Assembly: GCF_006517435.1 (NCBI RefSeq)
Contig: NZ_VHQG01000004.1
Span: forward strand, 372,001-436,000
Length of the DNA stretch: 64,000 bases
Direction of reading: 5' to 3'
From: Schumannella soli
GTDB lineage: Bacteria > Actinomycetota > Actinomycetes > Actinomycetales > Microbacteriaceae
In this document: positions 35,871 to 54,111 of the stretch, in pieces
How positions within the stretch are numbered: position 1 is the stretch's first letter
Layout of the letters: the number at the start of each line of letters is the position of its first letter
Notes under the pieces: model-generated
Seen by the model: the letters and a program-made list of their open reading frames with translations, nothing else
Told to the model about the DNA's origin: nothing
Database searches by the model: none
Program-made: the position numbers and the translations under genes

Positions 35871-36578
35871 TCAGAGGCCGGCCTCCTCGGCGCGGAGGTG
35901 GGCGAGGGCGGTGCGAGCCGCCGTGCGCACGTGCGCCGCGCAGAGCGCCGAGGCGGTCTCGTCATCCCGCCGCTGGATCGCCTCGACGATGCCGCGCAGC
36001 TCGCGCACGACCTGCAGCGGGCGTCCCTTCTCCGACAGCGAGGTCGCGCGCAGCGCCTGCACGCGCACCTGGATGCTCTCGAGCAGCTGCTGCAGCGCGG
36101 CACTGCCGGCGCCCTCGACGAGCACGACGTAGAAGTCGTCTTTCGCCTTGAGCAGCTCGCGGATCGTGGTGTGCTCGTTGGTGACCTCGTCGAGCTCGTC
36201 GACCGTCGCGACCAGGCGGTCGACCTGATCGTCGGTGGCGCGCTCGACGAAGCGGCGCACGATGAGCGACTCGAGCCCGGCCCGCACCTCGTAGAGGTCT
36301 TCGGCCTCGGTCAGCGAGGGGGCCGAGACGACGGCGCCCTTCTGCGGCACGACCGTCACGAGGCCCTCGGTGGCGAGCTCGCGGATGGCCTCGCGCACGG
36401 TCGTGCGCGAGACGCCGAGCCACTCCATGAGCTCGCGCTCGACGAGGCGCTGGCCTGGCTGCAGCTCGAAGTCGCGGATCGCCTGGCGCAGGCGGCCGAG
36501 CACCTGCTCGCGCAGGGGGGCCGCGATGCGTCCGACCGGCTCGAGGCCGGCGACGACGAGCGAGTTGGCGGGGGTCAT
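35871..36578 (-). CDS. GntR-family (FCD) transcriptional regulator of the catabolic operon
   Basis: A 235-residue FadR-subfamily regulator. The N-terminal winged helix (residues 20-85) is LREQVLGRLRQAIRDFELQPG, LVERELMEWLGVSRTTVREAIRELATEGLV; the C-terminal FCD helical domain has LYEVRAGLESLIVRRF, a His-rich metal/ligand set and the end ALCAAHVRTAARTAL. Such proteins repress catabolic genes until a carboxylate or sugar-acid ligand binds. It is the last gene of the run, 49 bases after the dehydrogenase gene, and the natural candidate to bind the TGATCGTAYGAC sites at 49397 and 49479. Confidence 0.9.
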   Translation of the reverse strand: MTPANSLVVAGLEPVGRIAAPLREQVLGRLRQAIRDFELQPGQRLVERELMEWLGVSRTTVREAIRELATEGLVTVVPQKGAVVSAPSLTEAEDLYEVRAGLESLIVRRFVERATDDQVDRLVATVDELDEVTNEHTTIRELLKAKDDFYVVLVEGAGSAALQQLLESIQVRVQALRATSLSEKGRPLQVVRELRGIVEAIQRRDDETASALCAAHVRTAARTALAHLRAEEAGL

Positions 36579-36627
36579 GGACGGGCTCGATTCGGGTGAG
36601 TGATGCTGTTCGGCAATCTAGCCTCCC

Positions 36628-37533
36628 TCAGTGCTCCGACGCGGATGCCGCGTCCGAGATCCAGCGCGCGACCTCGGTGTGGTCGGCGGTCGGCTCGAGC
36701 GCCTCGGCGGCCTCGGCCCAGTGGGCCACGGCCTCGTCGGCGAGTCGGTGGTAGGCGCCGGTCGACTCGGTGAGCCCCTGCGCGATGCGCATGTCCTTGA
36801 GCATGAGACGCAGGCCGAAGCCGGAGTCGTAGCCGCCGGGCAGGATGAAGTTGGGCCACTTGTTGTCGGTCGAGCCGCTGCGTCCGCTGGCGGCGTTGAA
36901 CACGGCGAGCATGATCTCGGGGTCGAGGCCGAAGCGCTGACCGGCGATCATGACCTCGCTCGTCGCCCAGAGGTGGGTGGCCGAGAGCAGGTTGTTGAGC
37001 GCCTTGAGCGCGTGGCCGGAGCCGACGGCGCCGGTGCGGGTGACCTTCCCGAGCACGCTCAGCACGACCTCGGCGCGGTCGACCTCGGCGCTGTCGCCGC
37101 CGGCCATGATCGCGAGGGTGCCCCGCTCGGCGCCCTTCACCCCGCCCGAGACGGGGGCGTCGACGAGCGGGATGCCGTGCCCGGCCAGGCGCTCGGCGAG
37201 CGCCTGGGTGGCGAGCGGCTCCGAGGAGCTCATGTCGAGCAGCAGCGTGCCCGGCGCGAGCGCGGAACCCGAATCCCCACCCGCGCCGAGCAGTTCGTCG
37301 ACGACCGCGGTGACGATCGCCGAGTTGGGGAGCATGAGCAGCACGACGCCGGCGCCGGTCACGGCCTCGGCCGCGGTCGCGCATCCGGTCGCCCCGATCG
37401 CGGCGACGCGCTCGACCGCACCCGGGGCGACGTCGAAGCCGCGCACCGGGAAGCCGGCGTCGACCAGCCGCGACAGCAGGGGGAAGCCCATGTTGCCGAG
37501 GCCGATCACGGCGACGGTCGGCTGCTCAGCCAT
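36628..37533 (-). CDS. NAD(P)-dependent beta-hydroxyacid dehydrogenase (HIBADH family), copy A
   Basis: A 301-residue member of the 3-hydroxyisobutyrate / 2-hydroxy-3-oxopropionate reductase family, which interconverts beta-hydroxyacids and their semialdehydes or keto acids. Rossmann start VAVIGLGNMGFPLLSRLVDAGF, substrate motif DAPVSGGVKGAERGTLAIMAGG, and catalytic Lys in GSGHALKALNNLLSA. It starts 8 bases inside the end of the carboxymuconolactone-decarboxylase-like gene. A second family member lies three genes upstream in the same operon, so two successive hydroxyacid oxidations or reductions are likely. Confidence 0.9.
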   Translation of the reverse strand: MAEQPTVAVIGLGNMGFPLLSRLVDAGFPVRGFDVAPGAVERVAAIGATGCATAAEAVTGAGVVLLMLPNSAIVTAVVDELLGAGGDSGSALAPGTLLLDMSSSEPLATQALAERLAGHGIPLVDAPVSGGVKGAERGTLAIMAGGDSAEVDRAEVVLSVLGKVTRTGAVGSGHALKALNNLLSATHLWATSEVMIAGQRFGLDPEIMLAVFNAASGRSGSTDNKWPNFILPGGYDSGFGLRLMLKDMRIAQGLTESTGAYHRLADEAVAHWAEAAEALEPTADHTEVARWISDAASASEH

Positions 37534-37975
37534 TCGAGGCCGCCGGCTCGGTCGCGGCGTCGGCCGGCGCGTCGGCCGGGGTCATGGCGCCCATCTCCTC
37601 GATCACGCGCTCCGCGACGCGGAACGACTCGAGCGCGGCGGGCACGCCCACGTAGATCGCGGTCTGCATGAGCACCTCCTGGATCTCCTGCACCGAGACG
37701 CCGTTGTTGATCGCGCCGCGCACGTGCACGCCCAGCTCGTGGGTGCGGTTGAGCGCGGTGAGCATGGCGAGGTTGATGAGGCTGCGGGTCTGACGCGGCA
37801 GTCCCTCGCGGGTCCACACGGCGCCCCAGCAGTACTCGGTCACGAGCTCCTGGATGGGCCGCGAGAAGTCGGTGACCTGGCCGAGCGAGCGCTCGACGTG
37901 CGCGTGACCGAGCACCTCGCGGCGCAGCTGCAGGCCGGCCTCGTAGGTGTCGGCGTGGGTGTCGTCGGGGCTCAT
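37526..37975 (-). CDS. Carboxymuconolactone decarboxylase (CMD/AhpD-like) family protein
   Basis: A 149-residue CMD-family protein: EYCWGAVWTREGLPRQTRSLINLAMLTALNR and GVHVRGAINNGVSVQEIQEVLMQTAIYVGVPAALESF match 4-carboxymuconolactone decarboxylase more than AhpD, and there is no CxxC peroxidase motif. In the beta-ketoadipate pathway this enzyme decarboxylates a lactone; family members also act on other lactones or keto acids. No other beta-ketoadipate gene is present, so the substrate here is open. ATG 37975 overlaps the cupin stop (ATGA). Adjacent cupin and CMD genes are found fused in other bacteria. Confidence 0.85.
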   Translation of the reverse strand: MSPDDTHADTYEAGLQLRREVLGHAHVERSLGQVTDFSRPIQELVTEYCWGAVWTREGLPRQTRSLINLAMLTALNRTHELGVHVRGAINNGVSVQEIQEVLMQTAIYVGVPAALESFRVAERVIEEMGAMTPADAPADAATEPAASNG

Positions 37976-38376
37976 GAGGGGTCCGTTCGCTGGGGTTCGG
38001 TCGTGTAGTCGGCTTCGTCGACGGCATCCGCCCAGACGGTGGGGCCGAGCGACACGGCGGTGTGGGTCATGAAGGAGTCGGGAGCGGCGCCGTGCCAGTG
38101 CTCCTCGCCGGGCGAGACCCAGACGACGTCGCCGGGCAGCAGCTCGACCACGGGACCGCCGGCCGACTGCGTCACCCCGCGACCGGCGGTGACGAACAGG
38201 ATCTGGCCGTCCGCGTGGTGGTGCCAGTGCGTGCGCGCACCCGGGCGGAAGCTGACGTCGTTGATGGTCACGCCGTCGGTTCCGGTCATGGTCATGTAGT
38301 TGTCGACCTGGCCGGTGAACTGCGAGCCCTTCTTGGCTCCCAGTCCGACGCGACGGTCGGCGGTGACGTGCTTCAT
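37972..38376 (-). CDS. Small cupin-domain protein
   Basis: A 134-residue single cupin. The metal-binding first motif is THWHHHADGQILFVTAG (HxHxx with extra His, and Gln/Glu) and the second is PGDVVWVSPGEEHWHGA. Such proteins are metal-dependent isomerases, lyases or dioxygenases; the substrate cannot be assigned. ATG 38376 has an excellent GGGAGGA. It overlaps both neighbours by 4 bases and sits directly before the CMD-like gene, which suggests that the two act on the same intermediate. Confidence 0.85.
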   Translation of the reverse strand: MKHVTADRRVGLGAKKGSQFTGQVDNYMTMTGTDGVTINDVSFRPGARTHWHHHADGQILFVTAGRGVTQSAGGPVVELLPGDVVWVSPGEEHWHGAAPDSFMTHTAVSLGPTVWADAVDEADYTTEPQRTDPS

Positions 38377-39311
38377 CGGGTTCCTCCCTCGGGGCTGGTG
38401 GCGGCATCGGCACCCGGCAGCGGCAGGTGCAGCCGCACTCCCCCGGAGACGTCGCCGATCGCATCCACGACCGTGTTGCTGATCTCGTCGGCGCGGCCGC
38501 TGGCGATCGCGAGCCCGAAGGCCGCGACGGGTCCGGAGGCGTGCAGGCCGGCGACGCCGAGGTCGGCGATCAGCTCGGTGTAGAGCTGCACGTCCTTCAT
38601 CATGAGCGTGTTCGTCAGGCCGCCCTTGAGGTAGTCGCCGTGCACGATCTTCGGGAAGCGGTTGAGTGTGGCGAAGTTGACGCCCGAGCTGGCGTTGAGC
38701 ACCTCGAGCAGCGCATCCAGGTCGAGTCCGGCCTTCTTTCCGGCGACCATGACCTCGGCCGTGGCCGACAGGGCGACGGCGTTGAGGAAGTTGTTGAGCA
38801 GCTTCGTCACGTGACCCGAGCCGCTCGCGCCCATGTGCACGACCGTCGTGGCGATGTGCGCGAGCACCGGCTGGATGCGCGCGAGGGCGTCCGCGTCGCC
38901 GCCCACCATGAGCGTGAGCGTGCCCTTCTCGGCCGCGGCCGCTCCGCCGGAGATGCCCGCGTCGAGGTAGTGCGCGCCCTTCGCGGCGAGCTTCTCGGCG
39001 ATCGCGCGGGTGGATGCGGGTGCGGCCGTCGACAGGTCGACGACCACCTGGCCCTCGCGCACGTTCGCGAGCACGCCGTCGTCGCCGAGCACGACCGCCT
39101 CGACGATGCGGCTGTTCGGCAGCGACAGCAGCACGACATCCGACTCGCGCGTCACCTGGGCGCCCGACGCGGCGACCGTGGCTCCCGAGGCGTCGAGGTT
39201 CGCCTGCTGGGCGTCGAAGCCGAGCACGTCGACCCCGCCGCGCAGCAGCGAGCCCGTCATGCGCCCGCCCATGTTGCCGAGCCCGATGAATCCGACTCTC
39301 AGCTCGCTCAT
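38373..39311 (-). CDS. NAD(P)-dependent beta-hydroxyacid dehydrogenase (HIBADH family), copy B
   Basis: A 312-residue homologue of copy A. VGFIGLGNMGGRMTGSLLRGG (nucleotide binding), DAGISGGAAAAEKGTLTLMVGG (substrate) and GSGHVTKLLNNFLNAVALSA with the catalytic Lys. Differences in the substrate loop (DAGISGG versus DAPVSGG) suggest a different substrate from copy A. ATG 39311 overlaps the SDR stop and its own stop overlaps the cupin ATG, so it is tightly coupled. Confidence 0.9.
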   Translation of the reverse strand: MSELRVGFIGLGNMGGRMTGSLLRGGVDVLGFDAQQANLDASGATVAASGAQVTRESDVVLLSLPNSRIVEAVVLGDDGVLANVREGQVVVDLSTAAPASTRAIAEKLAAKGAHYLDAGISGGAAAAEKGTLTLMVGGDADALARIQPVLAHIATTVVHMGASGSGHVTKLLNNFLNAVALSATAEVMVAGKKAGLDLDALLEVLNASSGVNFATLNRFPKIVHGDYLKGGLTNTLMMKDVQLYTELIADLGVAGLHASGPVAAFGLAIASGRADEISNTVVDAIGDVSGGVRLHLPLPGADAATSPEGGTR

Positions 39312-40156
39312 TCCGCGGCCCCCTTCCAGTCGTCGCCGTACAGCGCGGTGTCGACGGCGGAGTAGTCCCAGGCGCCCGCCCCTCCGGAGGGGCGCACGGT
39401 GTTGACGATGGTCGCACCGCCGTCGGCGGAGACGACCTGCCCGGTCACGTAGGCCGAGTCGTCGCTGAGCAGGAACGCGACGACCCCGGCGATCTCCTCA
39501 GGGCGGCCGGCGCGGCGCAGCGGCGTGGTCTCGGCGCGGCGCTCCATGTCGTTCTTGCCGCCGGAGGTGCCGGCGGCGGCCGCGAACAGCTCGGTCGGCA
39601 CGATGCCGGGGGCGACGCCGTTGACGCGGATGCCGAGCGGCCCGCCGTACATGGCGGCGCCGTGGATGAGCCCGACGACGGCGTGCTTGCTGGTCACGTA
39701 GGGCAGCAGGTCGGCGCTGCCGGTGAGGCTGGCGATGCTCGCGGTGACGGCGATCGTGCCGCGCGTCTGCGTGCGGCGGAACTCGCGGAACGCGGCGCGC
39801 AGGCCGAGGAACTGGCCGCGCACGTTCACCGCCATGACCTTCTCGAAGTCGGCGACCTCGAGTTCGGGCAGCGCGGTGAATCCGCCGAAGATGCCGGCGT
39901 TGAGGTGGTGCAGGTCGATGCCGCCGAAGGCCTTCAGCCCGGCCTCGACGTAGGACTCGACGCCCTCCTCGGTGGAGATGTCGGCGGTGACGGCGATGGC
40001 GTCGGTCGGCAGCGCGCCGACGAGCTCGTCGACGGCGGCGCCGTCGAGGTCGACCGCGACGACGCGGGCGCCCTCCGAGGCCAGTCGCTGGGCGCTGGCG
40101 CGGCCGAGGCCGCTGCCCGCTCCCGTGACGACGGCGATGCGATCAGCGAAGCGCAT
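39308..40156 (-). CDS. SDR-family oxidoreductase of the catabolic operon
   Basis: A 282-residue short-chain dehydrogenase with VVTGAGSGLGRASAQRLASEGA, Asp in VVAVDLDGAAVDEL (NAD preference), NAG in HHLNAGIFGG, Ser in VTASIASLTG and the Tyr-Lys pair in LLPYVTSKHAVVGL. Likely oxidises a hydroxyl group of the imported compound or an intermediate. It overlaps the MBL-hydrolase gene by 14 bases and the next dehydrogenase by 4. Confidence 0.9.
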   Translation of the reverse strand: MRFADRIAVVTGAGSGLGRASAQRLASEGARVVAVDLDGAAVDELVGALPTDAIAVTADISTEEGVESYVEAGLKAFGGIDLHHLNAGIFGGFTALPELEVADFEKVMAVNVRGQFLGLRAAFREFRRTQTRGTIAVTASIASLTGSADLLPYVTSKHAVVGLIHGAAMYGGPLGIRVNGVAPGIVPTELFAAAAGTSGGKNDMERRAETTPLRRAGRPEEIAGVVAFLLSDDSAYVTGQVVSADGGATIVNTVRPSGGAGAWDYSAVDTALYGDDWKGAAE

Positions 40157-41024
40157 CCGCTGCTCCCTTCTGATCGGGGTGGGTGTCGGCGGCGGGCGCC
40201 GCCGGGGTCGCGGGCAGCTCGCCGATGACGGCGGCGTGCTCGCCGAGCGCGCCGACTGCCCGCGGGAAGCGGTCGAGCGTCGACGGGTCGTGGCCGGTGA
40301 CGACGTGCGCGACCTCGCCCGCGGCGAGCGCCTCGCGGATGAGCCGGAAGGCGTCGTACATGGCCGGCAGCTCGGCGACGGAGGTGAACGGCATGTCGCG
40401 CTCGTACTCCTCGTAGTAGTGCACGGCGTCGCTGGCGAGCAGCACGGTGCCCTCGCTCGTGTCGACGAGCACCATCGCCTGACCGGGCGTGTGGCCGCCG
40501 ACCTCGATGACGCGCACGCCGGGGGCGTAGTCGAGCTCGCCGCCGAAGAAGTCGATGCGGCCGGCGTCGCGCGCGGCGACGAGGGCGGCGATCTCGGTGT
40601 CCTCCACCGAGTGGTGGAAGAGCGTCTGGTGGCCGTTCGGGCCGGTCCAGAAGTCGAACTCCTTCTTCGCGAGCAGGAAGCGGGCGTTCTCGAACAGGGC
40701 GATGTTGCCGATGTGGTCGAAGTGCCCGTGGGTGAGGATCACCTCGGGCGCCGTCGCCGGATCGACATCCGCCAGCGCGAAGGCCTCGTGCGGCTCGAGC
40801 AGGAAGGTGCGCTGGCGGTTGCCGCCGCCGAGGCGCGAGAAGCCGGTGTCGACGACGATCTCGCGCTCGCCGTCGCGCAGCACCCAGAAGAAGTAGTCCA
40901 TCTCCAGGTCGCCGTCGGGCTCGCCGTAGAGCGGGTAGTTGAGGTAGACGCCCTCGCGGGTGGCGTGCCGTGTGCCGTAGCGCACGATCGTCACCTGCCA
41001 GAGGTGCTTCGGCTCACTCGGCAT
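40143..41024 (-). CDS. MBL-fold hydrolase, N-acyl-homoserine-lactonase-like
   Basis: A 293-residue metallo-beta-lactamase-fold enzyme of the AHL-lactonase-like family. The dinuclear metal motif HxHxDH is THGHFDHIGN (about residue 98-103), with further His in VGGHTPGQAM and Asp in LLASDAVHYYEEY. In this operon a lactonase acting on a sugar or aldonic-acid lactone produced by the GMC dehydrogenases is more likely than quorum quenching (inference). ATG 41024 lies 11 bases inside the GMC gene end. Confidence 0.85.
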   Translation of the reverse strand: MPSEPKHLWQVTIVRYGTRHATREGVYLNYPLYGEPDGDLEMDYFFWVLRDGEREIVVDTGFSRLGGGNRQRTFLLEPHEAFALADVDPATAPEVILTHGHFDHIGNIALFENARFLLAKKEFDFWTGPNGHQTLFHHSVEDTEIAALVAARDAGRIDFFGGELDYAPGVRVIEVGGHTPGQAMVLVDTSEGTVLLASDAVHYYEEYERDMPFTSVAELPAMYDAFRLIREALAAGEVAHVVTGHDPSTLDRFPRAVGALGEHAAVIGELPATPAAPAADTHPDQKGAADALR

Positions 41025-42666
41025 GGCGCAGCTCCCAGATGCGGTCGGCCGCCCTCAGGGCGAGGGCCTGGATGGTGTGGGTCGGGTTGACGGCGGCGCC
41101 GGTGGCGAAGCTCGACCCGTCGACGATGAACAGCCCGGGCACGTCGTGCGCTTGGTGGTCGGCGTCGACGACCGAGTCGGTCGGGTCGGAGCCCATGCGC
41201 GCGGTGCCGAGCAGGTGCCAGCCGAGGATGCTGTCGAAGCCGAGCACGCGCACCGAGTCGGCACCGGCGGCGTAGGCGAGCTCGGTGGCCCGCTGGATGC
41301 CGTGCGCGCCGAGCTTCTTCGAGTTCTCGCTGAGCGTGTAGTAGGTCTTCACGCCCGGCAGGCCGAAGGCATCCAGGTCGTCCCAGTCGAGCTCGACGCG
41401 GTTGTGCGCCTCGGGCTCGTCGTCGCCGCACACCCAGATCGTGGCCTCGTGGTTGAGGTGGTGCTCGAGCGCGGCGTGGTGGCCCTCGCCCCACGGCGCC
41501 GTCTGCAGGGCCGTGTTGAGCGGCGAGTAGCCGCGCATCGCGACCATCGCGAAGCCGCGCAGGTGGTCGTTGTCGGGGTCGGTCTCGTAGAAGTGCCGCG
41601 ACGAGACCGTGCCGCCCCAGGCGCCGCGGTCGGCGTCGGTGCGCTCGGGGAAGTGCGCGATGACCATGGTCTGCACGTGCGGCAGGAAGTTGCGGCCGAC
41701 CTGGCCGCTCGAGTTGGCGAGGCCGTCGGGGAAGCGCTCGGAGGTCGACATGAGCAGGAGGCGCGGCGTGCCGATGCCGTTGCCGCAGATCACGACCGTC
41801 TTCGCGCGGATCGTGCGCACGACCCCGTCGGCGTCGTAGTACACGGCGCCGTCGGCGTGCCCGTCGTCGTCGATCGTGACCTCGCGCACGCGGGCGCTCG
41901 TCACCAGGTGGGCTCCGGCATCCAGCGCCTCGGGCCAGTAGGTGTTCGACGGCAGCGACAGCGCGCCGCTCGGGCAGCCGAAGGCGCAGAAGCCGCGGTT
42001 CACGCAGGCGGTGCGGCCCTTGTGGTCGACCGAGAGGATGGCCTGCGACTGCGCCCAGTAGTACCAGCCGAGCTTCTCGAAGCCGTCGATCCACTTGTTG
42101 CCGATCGTGCCGATCGGAACGGGCGGCAGGGCGAGGTCGTGGCGGTCGGGCGCGGTGGGATCGCCGGCGAGGCCGCTGACGCCCATCTGCTGCTCGTTGA
42201 TCTCGTAGTAGGGCACGAGGTCCTCGTAGTCGATCGGCCAGTCGACGCCGAAGCCGTCGAGGCTCCGGGTCTTGAAGTCGCTCGGCATGAGGCGCCAGAA
42301 GTGTCCGCCGTAGCCGACGGCGCTGCCGCCGACGGCCGAGTACATGTAGACGTCGACGGGGTTCTCGCCGAGGTTCGTGACCGGGTAGTCGGCAGGGCCG
42401 CGGCGCTTGCCGGGGCTCGCGTTCCAGTAGTGCCGGCCGCGCACCTCCCAGTCGCGATGCGCCTTGGGGATGTCGGCGTCGTCGATCCAGTCGCCCTGCT
42501 CGAGGCAGACGACCTGCACGCCGCGGCGCGCGAGGCTCCACGCGACGGCCGCGCCGGCGGCACCGGCGCCGATGACCAGCACGTCGGTCTCAGGGATGGC
42601 ACCCGCGGTGTCGTCCGAGGCGCCGGCCGTGCTGGTGGCGTCCGCGACGCCCTCCGCCGCGCTCAC
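41014..42666 (-). CDS. GMC-family FAD dehydrogenase A with C-x5-C-x3-C motif
   Basis: A 550-residue flavoprotein. FAD-binding TDVLVIGAGAAGAAVAWSLARRG (residues 27-49), GMC signature near AVGGSAVGYGGHFWRLMPSD, and the C-terminal active-site region with His in LGWHLLGTARMG and Asn in AVNPTHTIQA. Cys221, Cys227 and Cys231 form C-x5-C-x3-C (TACVNRGFCAFGCPSGA), as I recall for the [3Fe-4S] ligands of bacterial FAD-glucose dehydrogenase alpha subunits. No signal peptide, so cytosolic unless carried by a partner. GTG 42666 overlaps the stop of its small-subunit gene (GTGA). Probable role: oxidation of an alcohol group in a sugar, polyol or glycoside. Confidence 0.88.
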   Translation of the reverse strand: MSAAEGVADATSTAGASDDTAGAIPETDVLVIGAGAAGAAVAWSLARRGVQVVCLEQGDWIDDADIPKAHRDWEVRGRHYWNASPGKRRGPADYPVTNLGENPVDVYMYSAVGGSAVGYGGHFWRLMPSDFKTRSLDGFGVDWPIDYEDLVPYYEINEQQMGVSGLAGDPTAPDRHDLALPPVPIGTIGNKWIDGFEKLGWYYWAQSQAILSVDHKGRTACVNRGFCAFGCPSGALSLPSNTYWPEALDAGAHLVTSARVREVTIDDDGHADGAVYYDADGVVRTIRAKTVVICGNGIGTPRLLLMSTSERFPDGLANSSGQVGRNFLPHVQTMVIAHFPERTDADRGAWGGTVSSRHFYETDPDNDHLRGFAMVAMRGYSPLNTALQTAPWGEGHHAALEHHLNHEATIWVCGDDEPEAHNRVELDWDDLDAFGLPGVKTYYTLSENSKKLGAHGIQRATELAYAAGADSVRVLGFDSILGWHLLGTARMGSDPTDSVVDADHQAHDVPGLFIVDGSSFATGAAVNPTHTIQALALRAADRIWELRHAE

Positions 42667-43223: not shown

Positions 43224-43233
43224 GAGGGTCCCC

Positions 43234-44247: not shown

Positions 44248-45817
44248 CGGTGGCCTCCTTGTCGTGGTGGCCCTCGCCGAATGCGGCGGCCAGGATGGCG
44301 TCGACGTGCACGGGGTCCGTGCCGCGGATGAGCTCGTCGACCGCGCGACCGTCGCGCAGCACGATGATGCGGTCGGCGACCGCACTCACCTCCTCGAGCT
44401 CGGAGGAGGCGATGATGACGCCGATGCCGTCGGCGGCGAATCGGCGGAGGGCCTTGAGGATCTCCTCCTTGGCGCCGACGTCGACGCCGCGGGTGGGCTC
44501 GTCGGCGAGCAGGATCTTCGGCGCGAGGAAGCGCCAGCGCGCGAGCAGGAGCTTCTGCTGGTTGCCGCCCGAGAGCGTTCCGGCCTTCGCCCCGAGGCGA
44601 GCCGGGTCGAAGCCGAACTCGGTCACCAGCTCGGCCGTGCGGGCCTTGAGCTGCGCGGTCGACATGACCCCGGCCGTGGCGACCTTCGAGTAGCGCGCGA
44701 TGGCGATGTTCTCGGCGGCCGTCATCCCGAGCACGAGGCCCTGGTTCTTGCGGTCCTCGGGGATGAGCGCGACGCCGGCGTCGAGCGCGGCGCGCGGCGT
44801 CTTCGGCCAGCGCACCTCGCTGCCGCCGATCCGCAGGGTTCCGGTCGACTTCGGCTCGAGGCCGGCGAGGCAGCGCAGCAGGGTCGTGCGGCCGCTGCCG
44901 ACGAGTCCGCCGAGCCCGACGATCTCGCCGGGGCGCACGTCGATGGCGATGTCGTAGAGCAGGCCGGGGAGCGAGATCCCGGTCGCGATCAGCGGCTGGT
45001 CGTCGCGGCGCTCGTGCACCGTGACGCTCGTGTCGACGCCGTTCTCGTCGACGTCGCCGGCGAGCTCGGCCTTGACCAGGCCGCCGGCCTCGCCGAGCAT
45101 CTCGTCGACGATGCGGGTGCGGTCCCACTCGGCGACAGGACCCTGCTGCACGACGCGGCCGTCGCGCAGCACGGTCACGTGGTCGGCGACGTCGAGCACC
45201 TCCTCGAGGTTGTGCGAGACGAAGATCATGGTGACGCCCTGGCTGCGCAGCTCCTTGACGAGCCGCACGAGCGCGACCCGCTCGGTGTCGCTGAGGGCCG
45301 CCGTGGGCTCGTCGAGCAGGATGATCTTGGCCTCGGCGACGAGGGCGCGCATGATCTCGAGGATCTGCTGGTCGGCGACCGACAGGCGCCGCGCCATCTG
45401 GCGCCCGTCGATGCGCACGCCGAGTCGGCTGCACAGCTCGAGGTAGCGGCGGTGGATCTCGCGGCCGCGCACGACGCCGGCCGAGGAGGGCGTCATACCG
45501 AGGAAGACGTTGTCTTCGGCGCTGAGGCCGGGCACGATCGTCAGCTCCTGGTAGATCGCGACGAGGCCGGCGGCGCGCGACGCGGTCGGCTCGCCGGGCT
45601 TCGGCTGCACGCCGCCGATCGTGACGGTGCCCTCGGTCGCGGCGACGCGGCCGGTGAGCACGCCGATCAGGGTCGACTTGCCGGCGCCGTTCGCGCCGAC
45701 GAGGGCCTCGACCGTGCCGGCGGGGATCGTCAGGTCGACGCCCTTCAGCGCGCGCACGCCGCCGTAGGTCTTGACGACCCCGTCGACGACGATCGCGGGG
45801 GTGGATTCGGCGCTCAT
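44240..45817 (-). CDS. Sugar ABC transporter ATP-binding protein (RbsA/MglA type)
   Basis: A 525-residue tandem ATPase. The first half has Walker A VGANGAGKSTLIG, Q-loop region, signature LSVADQQILEIMRAL and Walker B KIILLDEPTAALS; the second half has a degenerate Walker A GLVGSGRTTLLR, a good signature LSGGNQQKLLLARW and Walker B KILLADEPTRGVDVG. The asymmetric halves are standard for carbohydrate uptake transporters of the CUT2 class. ATG 45817 overlaps the small-subunit B stop by 4 bases. Confidence 0.95.
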   Translation of the reverse strand: MSAESTPAIVVDGVVKTYGGVRALKGVDLTIPAGTVEALVGANGAGKSTLIGVLTGRVAATEGTVTIGGVQPKPGEPTASRAAGLVAIYQELTIVPGLSAEDNVFLGMTPSSAGVVRGREIHRRYLELCSRLGVRIDGRQMARRLSVADQQILEIMRALVAEAKIILLDEPTAALSDTERVALVRLVKELRSQGVTMIFVSHNLEEVLDVADHVTVLRDGRVVQQGPVAEWDRTRIVDEMLGEAGGLVKAELAGDVDENGVDTSVTVHERRDDQPLIATGISLPGLLYDIAIDVRPGEIVGLGGLVGSGRTTLLRCLAGLEPKSTGTLRIGGSEVRWPKTPRAALDAGVALIPEDRKNQGLVLGMTAAENIAIARYSKVATAGVMSTAQLKARTAELVTEFGFDPARLGAKAGTLSGGNQQKLLLARWRFLAPKILLADEPTRGVDVGAKEEILKALRRFAADGIGVIIASSELEEVSAVADRIIVLRDGRAVDELIRGTDPVHVDAILAAAFGEGHHDKEATGA

Positions 45818-46368
45818 GCGGAGACCTCCGTGCTGTCGGTGCCGGTGCCGTGCGTGCCGGCGCTGTCGTCGCTCGGCGGCGTGCCGATCGGCAGCGGCGC
45901 CGTGTCCGGCGTCGCCCGGTAGATCGCGCCCCGGGCGCGCACGGCGCTGGTGACGTCATCCAGGTCGTCGTCGAAGACGATCGGGATGACGCTGCGCTTC
46001 TCGTAGCCGACCCGGCGGGCGACGTCAGCGTCGAGGAAGTAGGCGGCGGTGATCGCGTCGGCGAGCGCCGGGAATTCGGCGGGCGGGGTCGCGGCGAGGC
46101 TCGCGAACTCGGCGGGCAGGGCCCGGCCGTCGTCCTCGCGGGCGGCGAGGTCGCCGAGCGCCGTGCGCACGGGCGCGAGCAGGTCGGGGCGCACCGAGAG
46201 CACCCGGTCGATGCCGGTCGAGGCGACGTGCCCCGCCGAGCCGGTCGGCATGTCGACGCCGTCGACGCCTGTGCCGGCGGGGATGAGCACGTCAGCGACA
46301 CGGCCGAGCAGCTCGCGCTCGGCGTCGCTCAGCGGCGGAAGCTCGCTGGCGGGCAGCTGGTACGACAT
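45814..46368 (-). CDS. Gluconate 2-dehydrogenase subunit 3-like small subunit B
   Basis: A 184-residue small subunit paired with GMC dehydrogenase B. PLSDAERELLGRVADVLIPAG is the family start and YFLDADVARRVGYEKRSVIPIV the C-terminal helix region; the last 40 residues are polar and variable. As in subunit A, no Tat or Sec signal is present. Its ATG is joined to the end of GMC B by TGATG. Confidence 0.7.
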   Translation of the reverse strand: MSYQLPASELPPLSDAERELLGRVADVLIPAGTGVDGVDMPTGSAGHVASTGIDRVLSVRPDLLAPVRTALGDLAAREDDGRALPAEFASLAATPPAEFPALADAITAAYFLDADVARRVGYEKRSVIPIVFDDDLDDVTSAVRARGAIYRATPDTAPLPIGTPPSDDSAGTHGTGTDSTEVSA

Positions 46369-48005
46369 CAGGCCACCTCCTGCTGACGGCGCTCGGCGAT
46401 CGCGTGCTCGGTGGCGCGCAGCGCGAAGGCCGCGATCGTCGGCGTCGGGTTCATTCCCGACGAGGTCGGCCAGGTGCTGCCGTCGACGATGATCAGGTTC
46501 GGGATGTCGTGGCTGCGGCCCCACTCGTCGACGACCGAGGCGCTCGGGTCGACGCCCATGGTGGCGGTGCCGAGGATGTGCCAGCCGGTCTCGCGGATCA
46601 TCGGCGCGACGATCGTCTCCTTCGCGCCCGCCTCGATCAGCGACTCCTGAGCCCGCTCGACGTTGAAGGCGAGCAGGTCCTTCGTGTTCTGCGAGGTGGT
46701 GTAGATCATCTTCGCCGCGGGCAGTCCGACGTTGTCGGTGCGGCTCGGGTCGAGCTCGATGCGGTTGTGCTCTTCGGGCAGGTCTTCGGCGACGATGCCC
46801 CAGGCGACCGAGTGGCCGAGCCGGTCAGCGACCGTGCGGTGGAAGTCGTCGCCCCAGATCGGCTTGCCACCCCAGGGGAACGCGGCGGTCATCGCCTGCG
46901 GTCCGCCGGTCGGCGTCACGTTCCACTTCGCGCCGCGCACGAAGCCGCGGCGGCGGTCGGTCTCGTAGAACTCGAGCGAGTAGATCGGCTGACCCCAGAC
47001 GCTCTTCCACGGGTCGAACTTCTCGTCGAAGACGCCGACGACGGTCGCGAAGGGGTGCATCATGAGGCGCTTGCCGACGAGGCCGGACGAGTTGGCGAGG
47101 CCGTTCGGGTTGCGCTTGTCGGCCGACATCTGCAGCAGGCGCGGGGTGCCGACGCCGTTCGCGGCGAGCACGACCACGTCGGCCTCCTGCCGGCGCTCGA
47201 CGCCGTCCTTGAGGTAGACGACGCCGGTGGCGCGGCCGCGCGCATCCACCTCGACCCTGCTGACGGTCGCGCCGGTGATGAGCTGCACGCCAAGCTTGAG
47301 CGCGTCGGGCCAGTGCGTCACGTCGGGCGACCCCTTGGAGTGGTTCGGGCAGCCCCACATGCAGGCGCCGCGCTGAACGCAGGCGCCCTGGTTGCGGTAG
47401 TCCTCGGTGGCGATCGCGTTGCTGCCGGGCCACCAGTGCCAGCCAAGGCGGTCGTGCGCGGCGGCCATCATGCGGCCGGCGCGGTTCATCGGGCCCGGGC
47501 GCATCGGGTAGGAGGTGATGTCGGGGAAGGCCGTGTCGCCCGGGTAGCCGGAGACGCCGAAGTCGGCCTCGATGCGGTCGTAGTAGGGGGCGAGGTCCTC
47601 GTAGCTGAAGGGCCAGTCGTCGGCGACGCCGTCGAGGGTGCGCACCCGGAAGTCGGAGGGCATGAGGCGCATCCAGATGCCCGCGTACATGACCGCGCTG
47701 CCGCCGACGCCGTTCCAGATGAGCGGGTCGACATCCGACTCGCTCGTGTCGATCGGGTAGTCGGCGGGCGCCTGGCGCACCTTCGGCAGCGGGTTCCACG
47801 GCTTGCCCGCGCTGAGCTCGAGGTACTCGTCGGCGACGTGCGAGGTGGAGTAGTCAGGCCAGGTGCCCTGCTCGAGGCAGACGACCCGGAAGCCGGCCTC
47901 GGCGTAGCGCTTGGCGGCGACAGCCCCGGCGGGGCCGGCGCCGACGATCACGACGTCGGCGCGCTCGCCGCGCACGGCGGGGGCGGTCAGGTTGCTGGCG
48001 GCCAT
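46368..48005 (-). CDS. GMC-family FAD dehydrogenase B with C-x5-C-x3-C motif
   Basis: A 545-residue homologue of GMC A. FAD motif ADVVIVGAGPAGAVAAKRYAEAG, GMC region WNGVGGSAVMYAGIWMRLMPSD, and active-site text GWHILGTATMG with His and GMNPTPTIAAF with Asn (GMC A has NPTHT here). Cys209, Cys215 and Cys219 give C-x5-C-x3-C (ACVQRGACMWGCPNHS). Cytosolic by sequence. It is the second gene of the operon, separated from the binding-protein gene by 195 bases with a GC-rich hairpin, so its expression may be lower than that of the binding protein. Divergence from GMC A suggests different substrates or different positions on one substrate. Confidence 0.88.
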   Translation of the reverse strand: MAASNLTAPAVRGERADVVIVGAGPAGAVAAKRYAEAGFRVVCLEQGTWPDYSTSHVADEYLELSAGKPWNPLPKVRQAPADYPIDTSESDVDPLIWNGVGGSAVMYAGIWMRLMPSDFRVRTLDGVADDWPFSYEDLAPYYDRIEADFGVSGYPGDTAFPDITSYPMRPGPMNRAGRMMAAAHDRLGWHWWPGSNAIATEDYRNQGACVQRGACMWGCPNHSKGSPDVTHWPDALKLGVQLITGATVSRVEVDARGRATGVVYLKDGVERRQEADVVVLAANGVGTPRLLQMSADKRNPNGLANSSGLVGKRLMMHPFATVVGVFDEKFDPWKSVWGQPIYSLEFYETDRRRGFVRGAKWNVTPTGGPQAMTAAFPWGGKPIWGDDFHRTVADRLGHSVAWGIVAEDLPEEHNRIELDPSRTDNVGLPAAKMIYTTSQNTKDLLAFNVERAQESLIEAGAKETIVAPMIRETGWHILGTATMGVDPSASVVDEWGRSHDIPNLIIVDGSTWPTSSGMNPTPTIAAFALRATEHAIAERRQQEVA

Positions 48006-48200
48006 CAGAGGGCTGCCTTCGGGGTGAGGATGCGGCGCTGCATTTCGGTGACCTTCGCGGTGGTGAGCGGTCGGTGGAGCGGTGGTGCTGGATGAGCGGT
48101 GGTGCTGGTGGTGCTGCGCTGCGGCGGAGCCGCGGTGCTGGCGCGCCCGGGGCGGGGGTGGATGAGCATCCCCGCCCCGGGGCGTCTCAGTGCGTCACGA
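48006..48200 (-). other. Spacer between binding-protein gene and GMC B gene
   Basis: 195 bases without a gene. It contains short repeats of GAGCGGTGGTGCTG (48075-48117) and the hairpin listed separately. On the minus strand the hairpin comes first, so it may attenuate transcription into the rest of the operon. I see no clear second promoter. Confidence 0.5.
48146..48181 (-). terminator. GC-rich hairpin after the binding-protein gene (possible attenuator)
   Basis: Perfect 12-bp stem CCCGGGGCGGGG / CCCCGCCCCGGG with a 12-nt loop, 20 bases after the stop of the substrate-binding protein. Such hairpins often raise the level of the first cistron by partial termination or mRNA protection. Confidence 0.65.
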
Positions 48201-49274
48201 TCAGTACTCCGGGTCGAACGACTTCGCGTCGGCCGGGGTCAGGATCTGCACGCCGGTCTTCGCGGCCTCGCCGGTCAGCTCGGCGCCGTCGTTCGGCAGG
48301 TAGCTGGTGACCTTCTCGCCGGCGAACGCCGCGGCGATCGCCTTGACCGACTGGGCGGCCATCGTCGAGGGGTAGTAGGGCGACGAGCCGGCGAGCGTGC
48401 CGTCGCGCAGCTGCTCGATGGCCCACTTCGAGGCGCCCTTGTCGTAGAGCTTCACCTTGCCGTCGAGCCCGGCGCCCTTGAGCGCCTGGTAGGCGCCCTG
48501 GGTGACGTCGGAGTTCGCGGCGCTGAACACGACGGTCGTGTCGGGGTTTGCCTTGAGCAGCGGAGCGAGCTTCGCCTGGCCCTGGTTGAGGGTGTAGTCG
48601 GTGTCGACGGTCGAGACGATGTCGAAGTCGGGGTACTTCTTCTTCATGGTCTCGATGGCCTTCTCGAGGTTCTTCGTGACGCCGAAGAGCTTCGGTCCGC
48701 TCAGCGCGATGACCTTCTGCGGGCCGGGGTTCTCCTTGGCCATGTGCTCGATGTAGCCCTCGAAGACGGTCGAGGAGTCGGTGCCGCCGATGTAGTTGAG
48801 GGTGCCGGGCGTGTACTGCTCTTCGCCGACCTTGAGTGCGCGACCGCACAGCGGCACGGCGATGACCGAGACGACGACGCCCTTCTTCGGGGCGGTCTGC
48901 GACATGATCTTGCACATGATCTCGTCGTTGATCGGGTCGATGATCATGGCGTTGAAGCGGTTCGACTGCAGGGCGTTCTGCACCTGGTTGAACTGCGTGG
49001 TGCCGTCCCACTTGGCGTCGAAGACGGTGACCTTGGCGTCCTTGATCTTCGCGACCTCGGCCTTGACCGTCGAGGTCGACGACTGCAGCCAGGCGTTGTT
49101 GACGCTGGGGGCGAAGTAGGCGAGGCGGATCGGGCCCTGCACCGAGACGGAGGTTCCGCCGGCATCCACGGTGACCTTCTTGCCGGTCGCGGCGGAGGTT
49201 CCCGAGGAACATCCGGCCACGAGCCCGACGAGTGCCGTCGCGAGGGCGATCGCGGCGAGCGTGCGTCGCTTCAT
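48201..49274 (-). CDS. Sugar ABC transporter substrate-binding lipoprotein (CUT2 type)
   Basis: A 357-residue periplasmic-binding-protein-1-like lipoprotein. Signal peptide RRTLAAIALATALVGLVAGC with lipobox LVAGC (Cys22), then the two-lobe sugar-binding fold: RLAYFAPSVNNAWLQSSTSTVKAEV, NRFNAMIIDPINDE, YIGGTDSSTVFEGYIEHMA, DYTLNQGQAKLAPLL, VFSAANSDVTQGAYQAL. It resembles ribose/xylose/galactose binders. First gene of the 14-gene run. ATG 49274 has AAGGGAG in a mini-hairpin loop. The promoter (TTGACC, 18 nt, TACGAT) and operator are listed separately. Confidence 0.92.
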   Translation of the reverse strand: MKRRTLAAIALATALVGLVAGCSSGTSAATGKKVTVDAGGTSVSVQGPIRLAYFAPSVNNAWLQSSTSTVKAEVAKIKDAKVTVFDAKWDGTTQFNQVQNALQSNRFNAMIIDPINDEIMCKIMSQTAPKKGVVVSVIAVPLCGRALKVGEEQYTPGTLNYIGGTDSSTVFEGYIEHMAKENPGPQKVIALSGPKLFGVTKNLEKAIETMKKKYPDFDIVSTVDTDYTLNQGQAKLAPLLKANPDTTVVFSAANSDVTQGAYQALKGAGLDGKVKLYDKGASKWAIEQLRDGTLAGSSPYYPSTMAAQSVKAIAAAFAGEKVTSYLPNDGAELTGEAAKTGVQILTPADAKSFDPEY

Positions 49275-49276
49275 GA

Positions 49277-49292
49277 ATAACTCCCTTGTTAT
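49277..49292 (-). promoter_or_regulatory. Shine-Dalgarno presented in a mini-hairpin (shared element)
   Basis: On the minus strand ATAAC-AAGGGA-GTTAT puts the ribosome binding site in a 6-nt loop 3 nt before the ATG. The same 12-mer AACAAGGGAGTT at the same distance occurs before the glucanase-like gene (7475-7488). Confidence 0.4.
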
Positions 49293-49396
49293 CTGCTGAC
49301 GTGCCGTCGCGTCGTCGCTCGGGCAGTCCGAGCGACGGGGGCTGAGTTCGCGGTGCTGTGGTGCTCGGGTGAGACGCCATCCGTCGCTCGGTGCGG

Positions 49397-49408
49397 TGAT
49401 CGTACGAC
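49397..49408. promoter_or_regulatory. Operator candidate 1 for the GntR/FCD regulator
   Basis: TGATCGTACGAC with the perfect 8-base palindrome TCGTACGA, fitting the TNGTNNNACNA-like style of FadR-subfamily sites. It overlaps the -10 box of the minus-strand operon promoter, so binding would block polymerase. Confidence 0.6.
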
Positions 49409-49428
49409 AATCCGACAATCTTGGTCAA
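49399..49428 (-). promoter_or_regulatory. Promoter of the 14-gene catabolic operon
   Basis: Minus-strand -35 TTGACC (49423-49428), 18-nt spacer, -10 TACGAT (49399-49404). The leader to ATG 49274 is then about 118 nt. Confidence 0.6.
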
Positions 49429-49478
49429 CTGCGGGCTGAAGACCCGGAAAACGAGTTCCAATCACCCTCAATTTTGTG

Positions 49479-49490
49479 TGATCGTATGAC
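49479..49490. promoter_or_regulatory. Operator candidate 2 for the GntR/FCD regulator
   Basis: TGATCGTATGAC, one base different from site 1, 82 bases away and 31 bases before the ATG of the divergent GlcG/HbpS-like gene. Presence at both promoters suggests joint control. Confidence 0.55.
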
Positions 49491-49521
49491 GAAGCAACTC
49501 ACCACGGTCGAGGAGTCGAAG

Positions 49522-49977
49522 ATGACCTACCGCCCCGAAGTCCACCCGCGGCACGTGCGCGTGCTCGCCTACGCCGAGGCGCGCGTCGTGCTCGACGCGG
49601 CTCTGGCCGAAGCCGAGCGCATCGGCGTGCCCGCCAGCGTCGCCGTGCTCGACGCCGGCCGCGAGCCGCTCGCCTTCGGCCGGCAGGACGGCGCGGGTCT
49701 GCTCACCGGCGAGGTCGCGACCGGCAAGGCGTTCACCGCGATCTCGCTCGGAACCGCGTCGGGCGACCTGTCCGTCGCCGCCAACACCGGCGGCGACTTC
49801 GCCGCGCTGCACCACGCGACCTCCCGCAACCTCGTGACCTTCGCGGGCGGCTTCCCGCTCGTCGACGCCGAGAGCGGGAACCTCGTCGGCGCGATCGGCG
49901 CGAGCGGCGGCAGCCTCGACGAGGACATCGCGATCGCCCAGGCCGGTGTCGCCGCGTTCCTGGAGCTGGCCCGATGA
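49522..49977 (+). CDS. GlcG/HbpS-type (DUF336) protein
   Basis: A 151-residue single-domain protein of the GlcG/HbpS family (LAYAEARVVLDAALAEAERIGVPASVAVLDAGREPLAFGRQDGA, split about residues 11-55; then VATGKAFTAISLG and FAGGFPLVDAESGNLVGAIGASGGSLDEDIAIAQAG). Members bind haem or small ligands and often accompany sugar-alcohol or glycolate catabolic genes. The ATG at 49522 is chosen for GAGGAG at 6 nt; an ATG at 49486 lies inside the operator and lacks a ribosome site. The stop overlaps the ATG of the following SDR (ATGA). Confidence 0.85.
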   Translation: MTYRPEVHPRHVRVLAYAEARVVLDAALAEAERIGVPASVAVLDAGREPLAFGRQDGAGLLTGEVATGKAFTAISLGTASGDLSVAANTGGDFAALHHATSRNLVTFAGGFPLVDAESGNLVGAIGASGGSLDEDIAIAQAGVAAFLELAR

Positions 49978-50756
49978 CCGCCGCCCTCGCTCCGCGCGGA
50001 CCGCGCATGGACGGCCGCCGCGTCGTCATCACCGGCGCCGCCGCCAACATCGGCGCGGCGACCGCGCGCCTGCTGGGCGCGGAAGGCGCCTCCATCGTCA
50101 TCGGCGACCTCGACGACCGCGCGCAGCTCGTCGTCGACGAGCTCGTGGATGCGGGCGTCACCGCGACCTTCGTGAAGACCGACGTCTCGAACGGCGAGAG
50201 CATGCAGGCGCTGCTCGCGGCCGCGAACGAGTTCCTCGGCGGCATCGACGTGATCATCAACAACGCCGGCGTGCAGCGCTCGAGCGCGATCAGCGAGATG
50301 AGCGAGTCGGACTGGGACCTGCACATGAACGTCAACGCACGCTCGTGCTTCCTCGCCGCGCGCTACGGCGTGCCCTACCTGCGCGAGTCGGGCCGCAACC
50401 CGGCGATCGTCAACATGGCGTCGGTCGGCGGCTACAAGGCTCCCGCCGGACTCAGCGGGTACTCCGCCTCCAAGGGCGCGATCATCGCCTTCACCCGCAC
50501 GGTCGCGACCGAGCTCGGCCCCGACGGCATCCGCGTCAACGCGATCGCGCCGGGCTGGGTCGACACCTCGTTCAACGACCCGATCGTCGCGCACATGGGC
50601 GGCAAGGCGGTGCAGGATGCGCAGGTCGCCGCGGGCGTGCCCCTCGGCCGTCAGGGCCGCAGCGACGAGATCGCCGAGGCGTTCCTCTTCCTCGCCTCCG
50701 ACGCGTCGACCTTCATGACGGGGCAGACGATCGTGATCGACGGCGGCGCCAGCTAG
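49974..50756 (+). CDS. SDR-family oxidoreductase, divergent partner of the catabolic operon
   Basis: A 260-residue SDR with VVITGAAANIGAATARLLGAEG, Asp in VIGDLDDRAQL (NAD preference), NNAG (DVIINNAGVQR), Ser in VNMASVGGYKA and Tyr-Lys in SGYSASKGAIIAFTR; the C-terminus FMTGQTIVIDGGAS is typical for glucose/gluconate-dehydrogenase-like SDRs. Coupled to the GlcG-like gene and presumably under the same regulator as the long operon. Confidence 0.9.
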   Translation: MTAALAPRGPRMDGRRVVITGAAANIGAATARLLGAEGASIVIGDLDDRAQLVVDELVDAGVTATFVKTDVSNGESMQALLAAANEFLGGIDVIINNAGVQRSSAISEMSESDWDLHMNVNARSCFLAARYGVPYLRESGRNPAIVNMASVGGYKAPAGLSGYSASKGAIIAFTRTVATELGPDGIRVNAIAPGWVDTSFNDPIVAHMGGKAVQDAQVAAGVPLGRQGRSDEIAEAFLFLASDASTFMTGQTIVIDGGAS

Positions 50757-51551: not shown

Positions 51552-51583
51552 GCCAGCCAGAGAACCGCGGCGGATGTTGCGAG

Positions 51584-51607
51584 GGCGTATCGCTTTCCGC
51601 ATACGCC
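51584..51607. promoter_or_regulatory. Inverted repeat in the vanY/vanR-like divergent promoter
   Basis: GGCGTAT and ATACGCC separated by 10 bases, between the two divergent starts (87-base gap). Candidate binding site for the response regulator. Confidence 0.45.
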
Positions 51608-51638
51608 GGCGATATGCACACCCGCCTACGCTCGGCCT

Positions 51639-54054: not shown

Positions 54055-54079
54055 TCCGCCGGCGTCCGCGCCGATGACA

Positions 54080-54111
54080 GAGCGGCCGGGCGCCCCTGCA
54101 CCCGGCCGCTC
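54080..54111 (+). terminator. Terminator after the vanZ-like gene
   Basis: Perfect 11-bp stem GAGCGGCCGGG / CCCGGCCGCTC, 10-nt loop, followed by CTTCT; 26 bases past the stop. Confidence 0.75.

Follow-up and report, generated by a model that had tools for sequence, protein, structure and literature searches.

A composite two-module gene cluster for the putative import and oxidation of a hydroxylated compound in Schumannella soli

Introduction

Does a tightly packed run of sixteen genes in the actinobacterium Schumannella soli encode one catabolic pathway, and for what kind of compound? The run lies in a stretch of 64,000 nucleotides (bases 372001–436000 of contig NZ_VHQG01000004.1; hereafter the window) of a genome of 3.68 Mb in 12 contigs. 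It encodes a CUT2-type ABC importer (ATPase, permease and substrate-binding protein, SBP), two GMC-family flavin dehydrogenases (GMCA and GMCB) with their small subunits (s3A and s3B), a metallo-beta-lactamase-fold hydrolase (MBL), two short-chain dehydrogenases (SDR1 and SDR2), two beta-hydroxyacid dehydrogenases (HAD1 and HAD2), a cupin, a carboxymuconolactone decarboxylase homologue (CMD), an HbpS/GlcG-like protein and a GntR/FCD-type regulator (GntR). An initial annotation had described these genes as a single unit for the uptake and oxidation of a sugar-like compound. The comparison described here revealed that the cluster is made of two joined modules, an upstream and a downstream one. 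To the reading that both act as one composite catabolic cluster, in which import would be followed by oxidation to a lactone or ketone, hydrolysis, hydroxyacid oxidation and decarboxylation, we assign a probability of about 50%.

The downstream module is a unit of its own

The downstream module contains MBL, SDR1, HAD1, HAD2, the cupin, CMD and GntR. A scan of a genome collection with the HAD1 alignment returned at least 80 loci, the closest named HAD1 genes among the matches listed including those of Rhodoglobus, Tersicoccus and Herbiconiux, and the 19 with a HAD1 identity of at least 55% (L081–L098 and L102) were analyzed further by tblastn (E 1e-4) within flanks of up to 10 kb, with L092, L090, L102 and L086 falling short of full flanks. 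At loci of very high GC content genes were called with a codon model for which the window cluster served as training set, and at the lower-GC loci with another caller. Among the matches listed, an MBL-like gene was seen at 17 of the 19 loci, a cupin at 18 and a CMD at 16. The order of the window, MBL-SDR1-HAD1-cupin-CMD-HAD2-GntR, is exact in L081 and L083 and is kept as far as HAD2, without a GntR match, in L087, L094 and L097; the remaining actinobacterial copies are rearranged or have members missing. Since these genes recur without GMC or CUT2 partners and their residues (described below) are invariant, they constitute a module of their own, and the description of the cluster as one 16-gene unit has to be given up. 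The module recurs across Actinobacteria and Proteobacteria, where its partners are quite different.

Twelve proteobacterial loci were grouped (L073, L076, L079, L080, L084–L086, L088, L089, L091, L093 and L102; the short L090 and L092 were excluded). Their modules are accompanied by an MFS protein of family F7 (11 loci), NIPSNAP (11), an aldehyde dehydrogenase (10), a two-domain CMD (9) and MmgE/PrpD (8), and some downstream modules adjoin MFS proteins resembling metabolite/H+ symporters. The plasmid loci of Acidiphilium (pACRY02), Sodalis (pHS1) and Paraburkholderia share with the window HAD1 (62–65% identity) and the cupin, CMD, MBL, second HAD and GntR (38–56%), to which Acidiphilium adds SDR1 (60%). 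They differ from the window in that an MFS transporter, a two-domain CMD and NIPSNAP replace the GMC and CUT2 genes, and also in the presence of an aldehyde dehydrogenase (not in Acidiphilium) and of MmgE/PrpD (only in Paraburkholderia).

The modules are linked in several genera of the family

The family sample consisted of 398 genomes from 85 genera, the HAD1 and GMCA samples being taken as one set, with up to five HAD1 or three GMCA candidates scored per genome. The GMC context covers the genomes with retrieved regions (the contig of G424 is incomplete), and the identity thresholds were chosen by us. HAD1 is present in 25 of the 398 genomes (14 of the 85 genera). A GMCA orthologue (80% or more) was found in six, namely the window genome, G298, G505, G620, G633 and G486, and all six also have HAD1, including the four, from three genera, that lie outside the window's genus. 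The probability of this co-occurrence in a random draw is 3e-8 by genome and 5e-4 by genus, although both values flatter the association because of kinship and because the window was picked for having both genes.

The whole cluster is present in G298, from the window's genus, with protein identities of 89–100%. In G505 and G620 (genus g203) and G633 (genus g126) the cluster minus the importer is found at 50–81% protein identity; here the upstream module (the GMC pair, both small subunits, HbpS and SDR2) is joined to the MBL/HAD/cupin/CMD set, and apart from the importer the gene order is that of the window. HbpS-like copies 60–97% identical stand beside GMCA in five other genomes, and SDR2 copies (72–99%) stand beside the HbpS-like gene, also in five. 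G486 (genus g148) keeps both modules about 300 kb apart, with GntR, an importer and an SMP-30 gene at the GMC locus. Of the 24 other family genomes with the module, 21 have a GntR copy near it (57–97% identity). Given the conservation in G298 and two other genera, the cluster is no chance assembly. On the simplest reading, the GMC locus would make an acid or lactone consumed by the downstream module. The coherent route from uptake through oxidation to lactone and hydroxyacid steps proposed at the outset is thus in keeping with the linkage in G505, G620 and G633 and the retention of both modules in G486. The GMC and small-subunit pairs are kept in five other genomes; outside the genus a different CUT2 set takes the place of the transporter.

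Two further observations concern the partners of the downstream module. A two-domain CMD gene stands beside it in all 20 family genomes without an adjacent GMC pair (L182, L184, L186–L202 and L218/L066) and in none of the five with one, a pattern for which we offer no explanation. In G297, of the window's genus (L066/L067), the downstream module is 57–72% identical, and the run beside it, CUT2 - DRL oxidoreductase - small subunit - GMC - aldehyde dehydrogenase - CUT2 - DUF1537 kinase, provides a second, different CUT2/GMC partner. These DUF1537 and DRL genes prompted a consideration of D-apionate/tetronate chemistry, which was rejected: the 16 genes include none of this kind, and a literature search on it turned up nothing useful.

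Downstream enzymes and known pathways

The residues of the downstream enzymes are strongly conserved. The metal motif of MBL, HxHxDH-H-D-H, is invariant in 39 of 39 rows; scores against the NCBIfam equivalogs AiiA, AttM, AidB and pyridoxolactonase were 36–60 bits, all missing cut-offs of 325–390. The catalytic Lys and Gly-Gly are invariant in both HADs (Lys in 39 of 39 rows in each), those of HAD2 being Lys177 and Gly130-Gly131 (39/39), and the HAD1 family profile is nearest to 2-(hydroxymethyl)glutarate dehydrogenase (3cky). SDR1 has levodione reductase (1iy8) as its nearest PDB entry. The cupin is nearest to 4bif/2f4p/4uxa and scores 119.4 bits against NF049940, under the cut-off of 140. Its residues H52, H54, Q58 and H93 are invariant in 36 of 36 rows and align with the same letters in 4bif, where we take their equivalents to be the metal ligands of GtHNL (a 3-His/1-Gln site).

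CMD scores 158.9 bits against TIGR02425 (PcaC), above the cut-off of 155.7, and is the sole match over this cut-off in the genome; PcaC-type is therefore a designation by model score only. Between 36 and 38 of the 38 aligned rows are conserved at the checked positions, with the exception of one Arg/Lys position. Unlike PcaC of the protocatechuate pathway, CMD has no gene of that pathway beside it among the 16, and protocatechuate 3,4-dioxygenase (PF00775) gave one partial match in the genome (41.8 bits over 75 positions; cut-off 27.3).

These similarities raise the question of whether a known pathway is present here in local form, for which benzoxazinoid degradation (bxd), C-glycoside 3-oxidation, pyridoxine degradation and the protocatechuate/beta-ketoadipate route come into consideration. 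Besides the PcaC-type CMD, the lactonase family of MBL is shared by BxdA and 4-pyridoxolactonase. The bxd cluster of Microbacterium resembles the window, by description and not by sequence, in having a lactonase of the N-acyl homoserine lactonase family and an NAD(P)-dependent oxidoreductase (PMC11297187); the main text of that paper names neither a cupin nor a carboxymuconolactone decarboxylase, both of which the window has. Pyridoxine-pathway NCBIfam models stay far under cut-off. For the C-glycoside version, GMCA matches pyranose oxidases at E ~1e-7 as against E 1e-62 for FAD glucose dehydrogenase, and GMCB has no match of pyranose-oxidase/CGOx type at E ≤ 1e-20. For the protocatechuate version, the genome offers the one partial PF00775 match, over its cut-off. 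None of the four as a single known pathway is supported by the model and profile comparisons, and a local version of any of them is very improbable. No published description or substrate assignment of either module was found in a search of open-licence papers, in line with the original statement that no described pathway with this set was known to the annotator, and we class the cluster as a variant built from known families to which no pathway assignment was found.

GMC dehydrogenases and their small subunits

FAD glucose dehydrogenase 6a2u is the nearest PDB entry to both GMCA (E 1.2e-62) and GMCB (E 3e-57), and both have their nearest relatives among the catalytic subunits of FAD-dependent glucose and fructose dehydrogenases (E from 1e-62 to 1e-54). 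The Cys-x5-Cys-x3-Cys loop and the His/Asn pair are present in both proteins alike; in GMCA they correspond to C209, C215 and C219 and to His476/Asn519. Across the GMC alignment the His is found in 48 of 48 rows, the Asn in all 47 rows with a letter at that position, and the three Cys together in 40 of 48. In the FAD glucose dehydrogenase (FADGDH) of Burkholderia cepacia, residues Cys212, Cys218 and Cys222 hold a [3Fe-4S] cluster (PMC6719666). The spacing in GMCA and GMCB is the same, and a [3Fe-4S] cluster is predicted from this motif. Cys213, which ties the alpha to the gamma subunit in the B. cepacia enzyme, has no counterpart in the motif of the window GMCs. In a tree of 48 GMC rows (G505 and G620 each entered twice for GMCA, long branches flagged), GMCA and GMCB belong to two distinct clades (support 100/100 and 99/98), both containing the same six genomes.

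The small subunit s3A gave no Pfam match at E ≤ 0.001; its comparison with the s3B family by hhalign gave a probability of 94 (E 1e-7), and its gene adjoins GMCA in six genomes, Schumannella soli included. Profile searches of the PDB for the small subunits returned chance-level matches only. The B. cepacia small subunit is described as a Tat hitchhiker (PMC6719666), whereas no strongly hydrophobic N-terminal stretch was seen in s3A or s3B by simple hydropathy, no signal-peptide predictor being used. This difference points to both GMC/small-subunit pairs working in the cytoplasm, after import.

The FADGDH and fructose dehydrogenase complexes (BcGDH 6a2u/8grj, FDH 7w2j/8xcm) thus share with the window the GMC family, the His/Asn pair, the cysteine loop and an adjoining small-subunit gene. 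In contrast to them, the window shows no export signal on the small subunit and places two GMC/small-subunit pairs together beside an importer; furthermore, no multihaem cytochrome c gene is found among the 16 genes, the part of the genome searched for it. The GMC pairs are accordingly filed as probable FADGDH-like enzymes that fail two defining features, the export signal and the haem-c gene.

Rhizobial loci offer a second comparison. Those of Shinella (L036), Rhizobium (L038) and Agrobacterium (L035) resemble the window in GMCA family (47–57% identity) and in an adjoining gene of small-subunit size, and that of Shinella also in a CUT2 importer. They differ in having no MBL, HAD1, cupin or CMD match nearby and in the presence of genes for electron transfer flavoprotein (ETF), about 10 kb off in L035. 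On the Shinella and Rhizobium plasmids (L036 and L038), the GMCA homologue and the gene of small-subunit size adjoin ETF-alpha/beta and, in L038, also ETF-QO. This arrangement suggests that ETF is the electron acceptor of this branch of GMC dehydrogenases.

In other GMC homologues (L051, L071, L208 (866), L209, L210, L183, L206 and L207) at least one cluster Cys is lost or unalignable and the His/Asn pair is kept; the first five of these have CUT2-type matches nearby. Homologues of GMCA, HbpS and SDR2 were also found in other actinobacterial families, in L042 with enolase-superfamily, 2-hydroxyacid dehydrogenase, cyclase-family, DAO and IlvD/EDD genes, and in L039 with a DAO gene by Pfam and neighbours that by eye are like those of L042.

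Importer and SMP-30 neighbours

The CUT2 importer is complete, as first described: a double ATPase, a PF02653 permease and a Peripla_BP_4 binding protein with a lipobox-like LVAGC (by eye). The ATPase and permease genes lie between the two small-subunit genes, and the SBP gene adjoins GMCA. AraH/RbsC-like NCBIfam models match the permease, all under cut-off, and neither permease nor SBP reached any substrate-specific NCBIfam cut-off. The best SBP match is at a locus of the Pararhizobium p4 plasmid (ATPase 52%, permease 59%, three binding proteins 33–36%). At that locus (L078, Pararhizobium qamdonense) the three CUT2 binding proteins are paralogues, encoded in a single run that also includes SDR, VOC and fumarylacetoacetate-hydrolase genes.

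In G505, G620, G633 and G486 a different CUT2 set (binding protein, ATPase and two permeases) follows SDR2. A gene of the SMP-30/gluconolactonase family adjoins the last permease in all four, which are the GMC-bearing genomes outside the window's genus; it was identified by PF08450 in the G505 copy, to which the other three are 76–78% identical, and its strand is that of the importer in G633 and G486 and the opposite one in G505 and G620. Near the downstream module, a CUT2-permease match was found in 14 of the 25 family genomes.

Proposed pathway

The sequence of events that would unite these parts begins with the uptake of a polar, hydroxylated, probably cyclic compound by the CUT2 importer. 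GMCA with s3A and GMCB with s3B would oxidize two hydroxyls in the cytoplasm, at least one of them to a lactone or ketone, probably assisted at this stage by SDR2 and the HbpS-like protein. The lactone would be opened by MBL, and in relatives perhaps by SMP-30 too; the hydroxy acid so formed may then be oxidized by SDR1, HAD1 and HAD2 into a beta-keto acid or a semialdehyde, after which the PcaC-type CMD with the cupin would remove a carboxyl group, rearrange the product or cleave a C-C bond. GntR may control both modules. The lactone step is proposed because of the invariant metal motif of MBL and the SMP-30-family gene by the importer in four of four genomes, the beta-hydroxyacid step because of the invariant Lys and Gly-Gly of both HADs, and the decarboxylation because CMD exceeds the PcaC cut-off as the sole such copy. 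Family membership, conservation, linkage and residues are observed; we infer the order of the steps and their regulation. The remark that no kinase, aldolase or isomerase is present holds for the 16 genes.

Several observations weigh against this proposal. Only six of the 398 genomes carry the GMC genes, two of them from the window's genus, and no homologue of the GMC proteins or the CUT2 permease is among the matches listed for any of the 19 scan loci. Beside the downstream module of G486 lie a two-domain CMD gene of its own and a weak match to an MHS-type symporter, and G332 and G534, from the same genus, have a module like that of G486 and no GMCA match at E 1e-75. The window genome gave no match to ETF-alpha in a model search and none over cut-off to the mycofactocin maturase; together with the lack of a haem-c gene among the 16, this leaves the electron acceptor of the GMC pairs unexplained. 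ETF, considered because of the rhizobial neighbours, and mycofactocin were both rejected as acceptors here on these grounds. There is likewise no SMP-30 match in the window genome, so that a dedicated SMP-30 lactonase elsewhere in it was rejected and the lactone opener must be MBL or something unrecognized. Finally, conservation of the cluster does not extend to the importer, and CUT2 homology therefore reveals little about the substrate.

Some of these facts could also be accounted for by two independent pathways at one locus, CUT2/GMC/HbpS/SDR2 on one side and MBL to HAD2 on the other, with no shared metabolite. The downstream module lacks a GMC pair at its own locus in 20 of the 25 family genomes that have it, as it does at all 19 scan loci among the matches listed, and weak MHS-type symporter matches (30–31%) stand beside it in G332, G534, G643 and G486. 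Such independence is hard to reconcile with the presence of HAD1 in six of six GMCA-orthologue genomes versus 25 of 398 overall, with the tight gene order shared by five genomes from three genera, with the overlapping MBL/GMCB junction of the window, or with the single GntR copy. We consider it improbable.

The nature of the substrate is less clear. A sugar-like compound is favoured by the relatives of the GMC proteins, the CUT2-permease matches by 14 of 25 family modules and the SMP-30 genes. It is weakened, again to the detriment of the proposed pathway, by the occurrence of the downstream module beside monooxygenases, other flavoproteins and organic-acid-type symporters; the original designation "sugar-like" is therefore a candidate reading. 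An FMO-like monooxygenase (Baeyer-Villiger-type in our reading) and an HpcH/HpaI aldolase accompany the module in Tersicoccus, Acrocarpospora and a Streptosporangiaceae genome, with Pfam assignments based on the Tersicoccus proteins, and in Herbiconiux it has three FAD_binding_4 flavoproteins and an NmrA-like reductase alongside. Such neighbours suggest a plant-derived aromatic or terpenoid alcohol as substrate, in which case the GMCs would behave as dehydrogenases of benzylic or cyclic alcohols and the downstream module would take lactone or hydroxy-acid fragments common to several pathways. The partial module of R. rhodochrous GD02 (CMD, HAD2 and GntR), flanked by two P450s and a maleylacetate reductase, the cat/ben-like genes (by eye) that follow the module in Pseudomonas syringae GR12-2, and the levodione reductase relative of SDR1 are consistent with this possibility. 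A plant alcohol does not sit well with GMC proteins whose nearest relatives oxidize glucose and fructose (E 1e-62 to 1e-54), with the CUT2-permease matches (14/25) and SMP-30-family genes (4/4), or with the D-threonate-kinase-like DUF1537 protein (under cut-off) and DRL-type oxidoreductase of G297, and it appears rather unlikely as the substrate.

If the composite pathway is correct, a catabolic route common to bacteria of at least two phyla would emerge, offering a natural setting for the hydroxynitrile-lyase-type cupin family and for a PcaC-type decarboxylase outside the protocatechuate pathway; the FAD glucose dehydrogenases of glucose sensors would gain relatives that probably work in the cytoplasm. 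The substrate becomes testable through the modular pattern, since single-module genomes predict which half of the pathway serves which intermediate. Tentatively, and with the odds against it, MBL-SDR1-HAD1-cupin-CMD-HAD2 may represent an undescribed central route of acid degradation that accepts varied front ends, in which a PcaC-type protein and a cupin would decarboxylate or cleave C-C bonds outside aromatic ring fission and an FADGDH-type enzyme would be soluble and cytoplasmic, with a new acceptor. The front ends seen are the GMC pair with CUT2 in the window and, elsewhere, a monooxygenase, VAO-type flavoproteins and organic-acid-type symporters.

Gene organization

The 16 genes, 14 on the minus strand (49274 down to 35871) and two divergent on the plus strand, all have intact reading frames. 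Their families were read from Pfam/NCBIfam model searches and agree with the gene list and placement given initially, s3A by profile comparison only (Table 1). The reported overlap of most minus-strand genes was confirmed at 10 of the 13 same-strand junctions, by 1–14 bases; the remaining three are separated by 10 (s3B/permease), 49 (GntR/HAD2) and 195 bases (GMCA/SBP).

Table 1. Features of the cluster, in window coordinates.
Feature	Position	Strand	Basis
GntR/FCD-type transcriptional regulator	35871..36578	-	PF00392, PF07729
HAD2, beta-hydroxyacid dehydrogenase (HIBADH superfamily)	36628..37533	-	PF03446+PF14833
CMD, PcaC-type 4-carboxymuconolactone decarboxylase homologue	37526..37975	-	TIGR02425
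Small one-domain cupin, hydroxynitrile-lyase-like metal site	37972..38376	-	PF07883 (Cupin_2)
HAD1, beta-hydroxyacid dehydrogenase	38373..39311	-	PF03446+PF14833 (NAD_binding_2/NAD_binding_11)
SDR1, short-chain dehydrogenase	39308..40156	-	PF13561
MBL, lactonase-type metallo-beta-lactamase-fold hydrolase	40143..41024	-	PF00753 (Lactamase_B)
GMCB, GMC flavin dehydrogenase with [3Fe-4S]-type cysteines	41014..42666	-	PF00732/PF05199
s3B, small subunit of GMCB	42663..43223	-	PF13618 (Gluconate_2-dh3)
CUT2-type ABC permease	43234..44247	-	PF02653 (BPD_transp_2)
CUT2-type double ABC ATPase	44240..45817	-	PF00005 (ABC_tran), two stretches
s3A, small subunit of GMCA	45814..46368	-	Profile match to s3B family
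GMCA, GMC flavin dehydrogenase with [3Fe-4S]-type cysteines	46368..48005	-	PF00732/PF05199
Gap separating SBP gene from the others, with strong GC hairpin (possible attenuator)	48006..48200	-	RNA fold
SBP, CUT2-type substrate-binding lipoprotein	48201..49274	-	PF13407 (Peripla_BP_4)
Sigma-70-like promoter match upstream of SBP gene	49399..49428	-	Sequence match, not evidence of function
HbpS/GlcG-like protein (possible alternative ATG at 49486)	49522..49977	+	PF03928
SDR2, short-chain dehydrogenase	49974..50756	+	PF13561

The minus-strand genes are probably co-transcribed. No terminator-like site was found in the 15.7-kb cluster region, and its only sigma-70-like match (0.4 expected) lies upstream of the SBP gene. 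The 195-base gap folds with -71.4 kcal/mol (z -1.88), 9 of 200 shuffles being equally stable; a hairpin after a binding-protein gene is common where the binding protein is made in excess. Beside the cluster, positions 50799–56995 of the window contain a small minus-strand open reading frame followed by two response regulator/histidine kinase pairs, the first assigned by Pfam and the second by eye.

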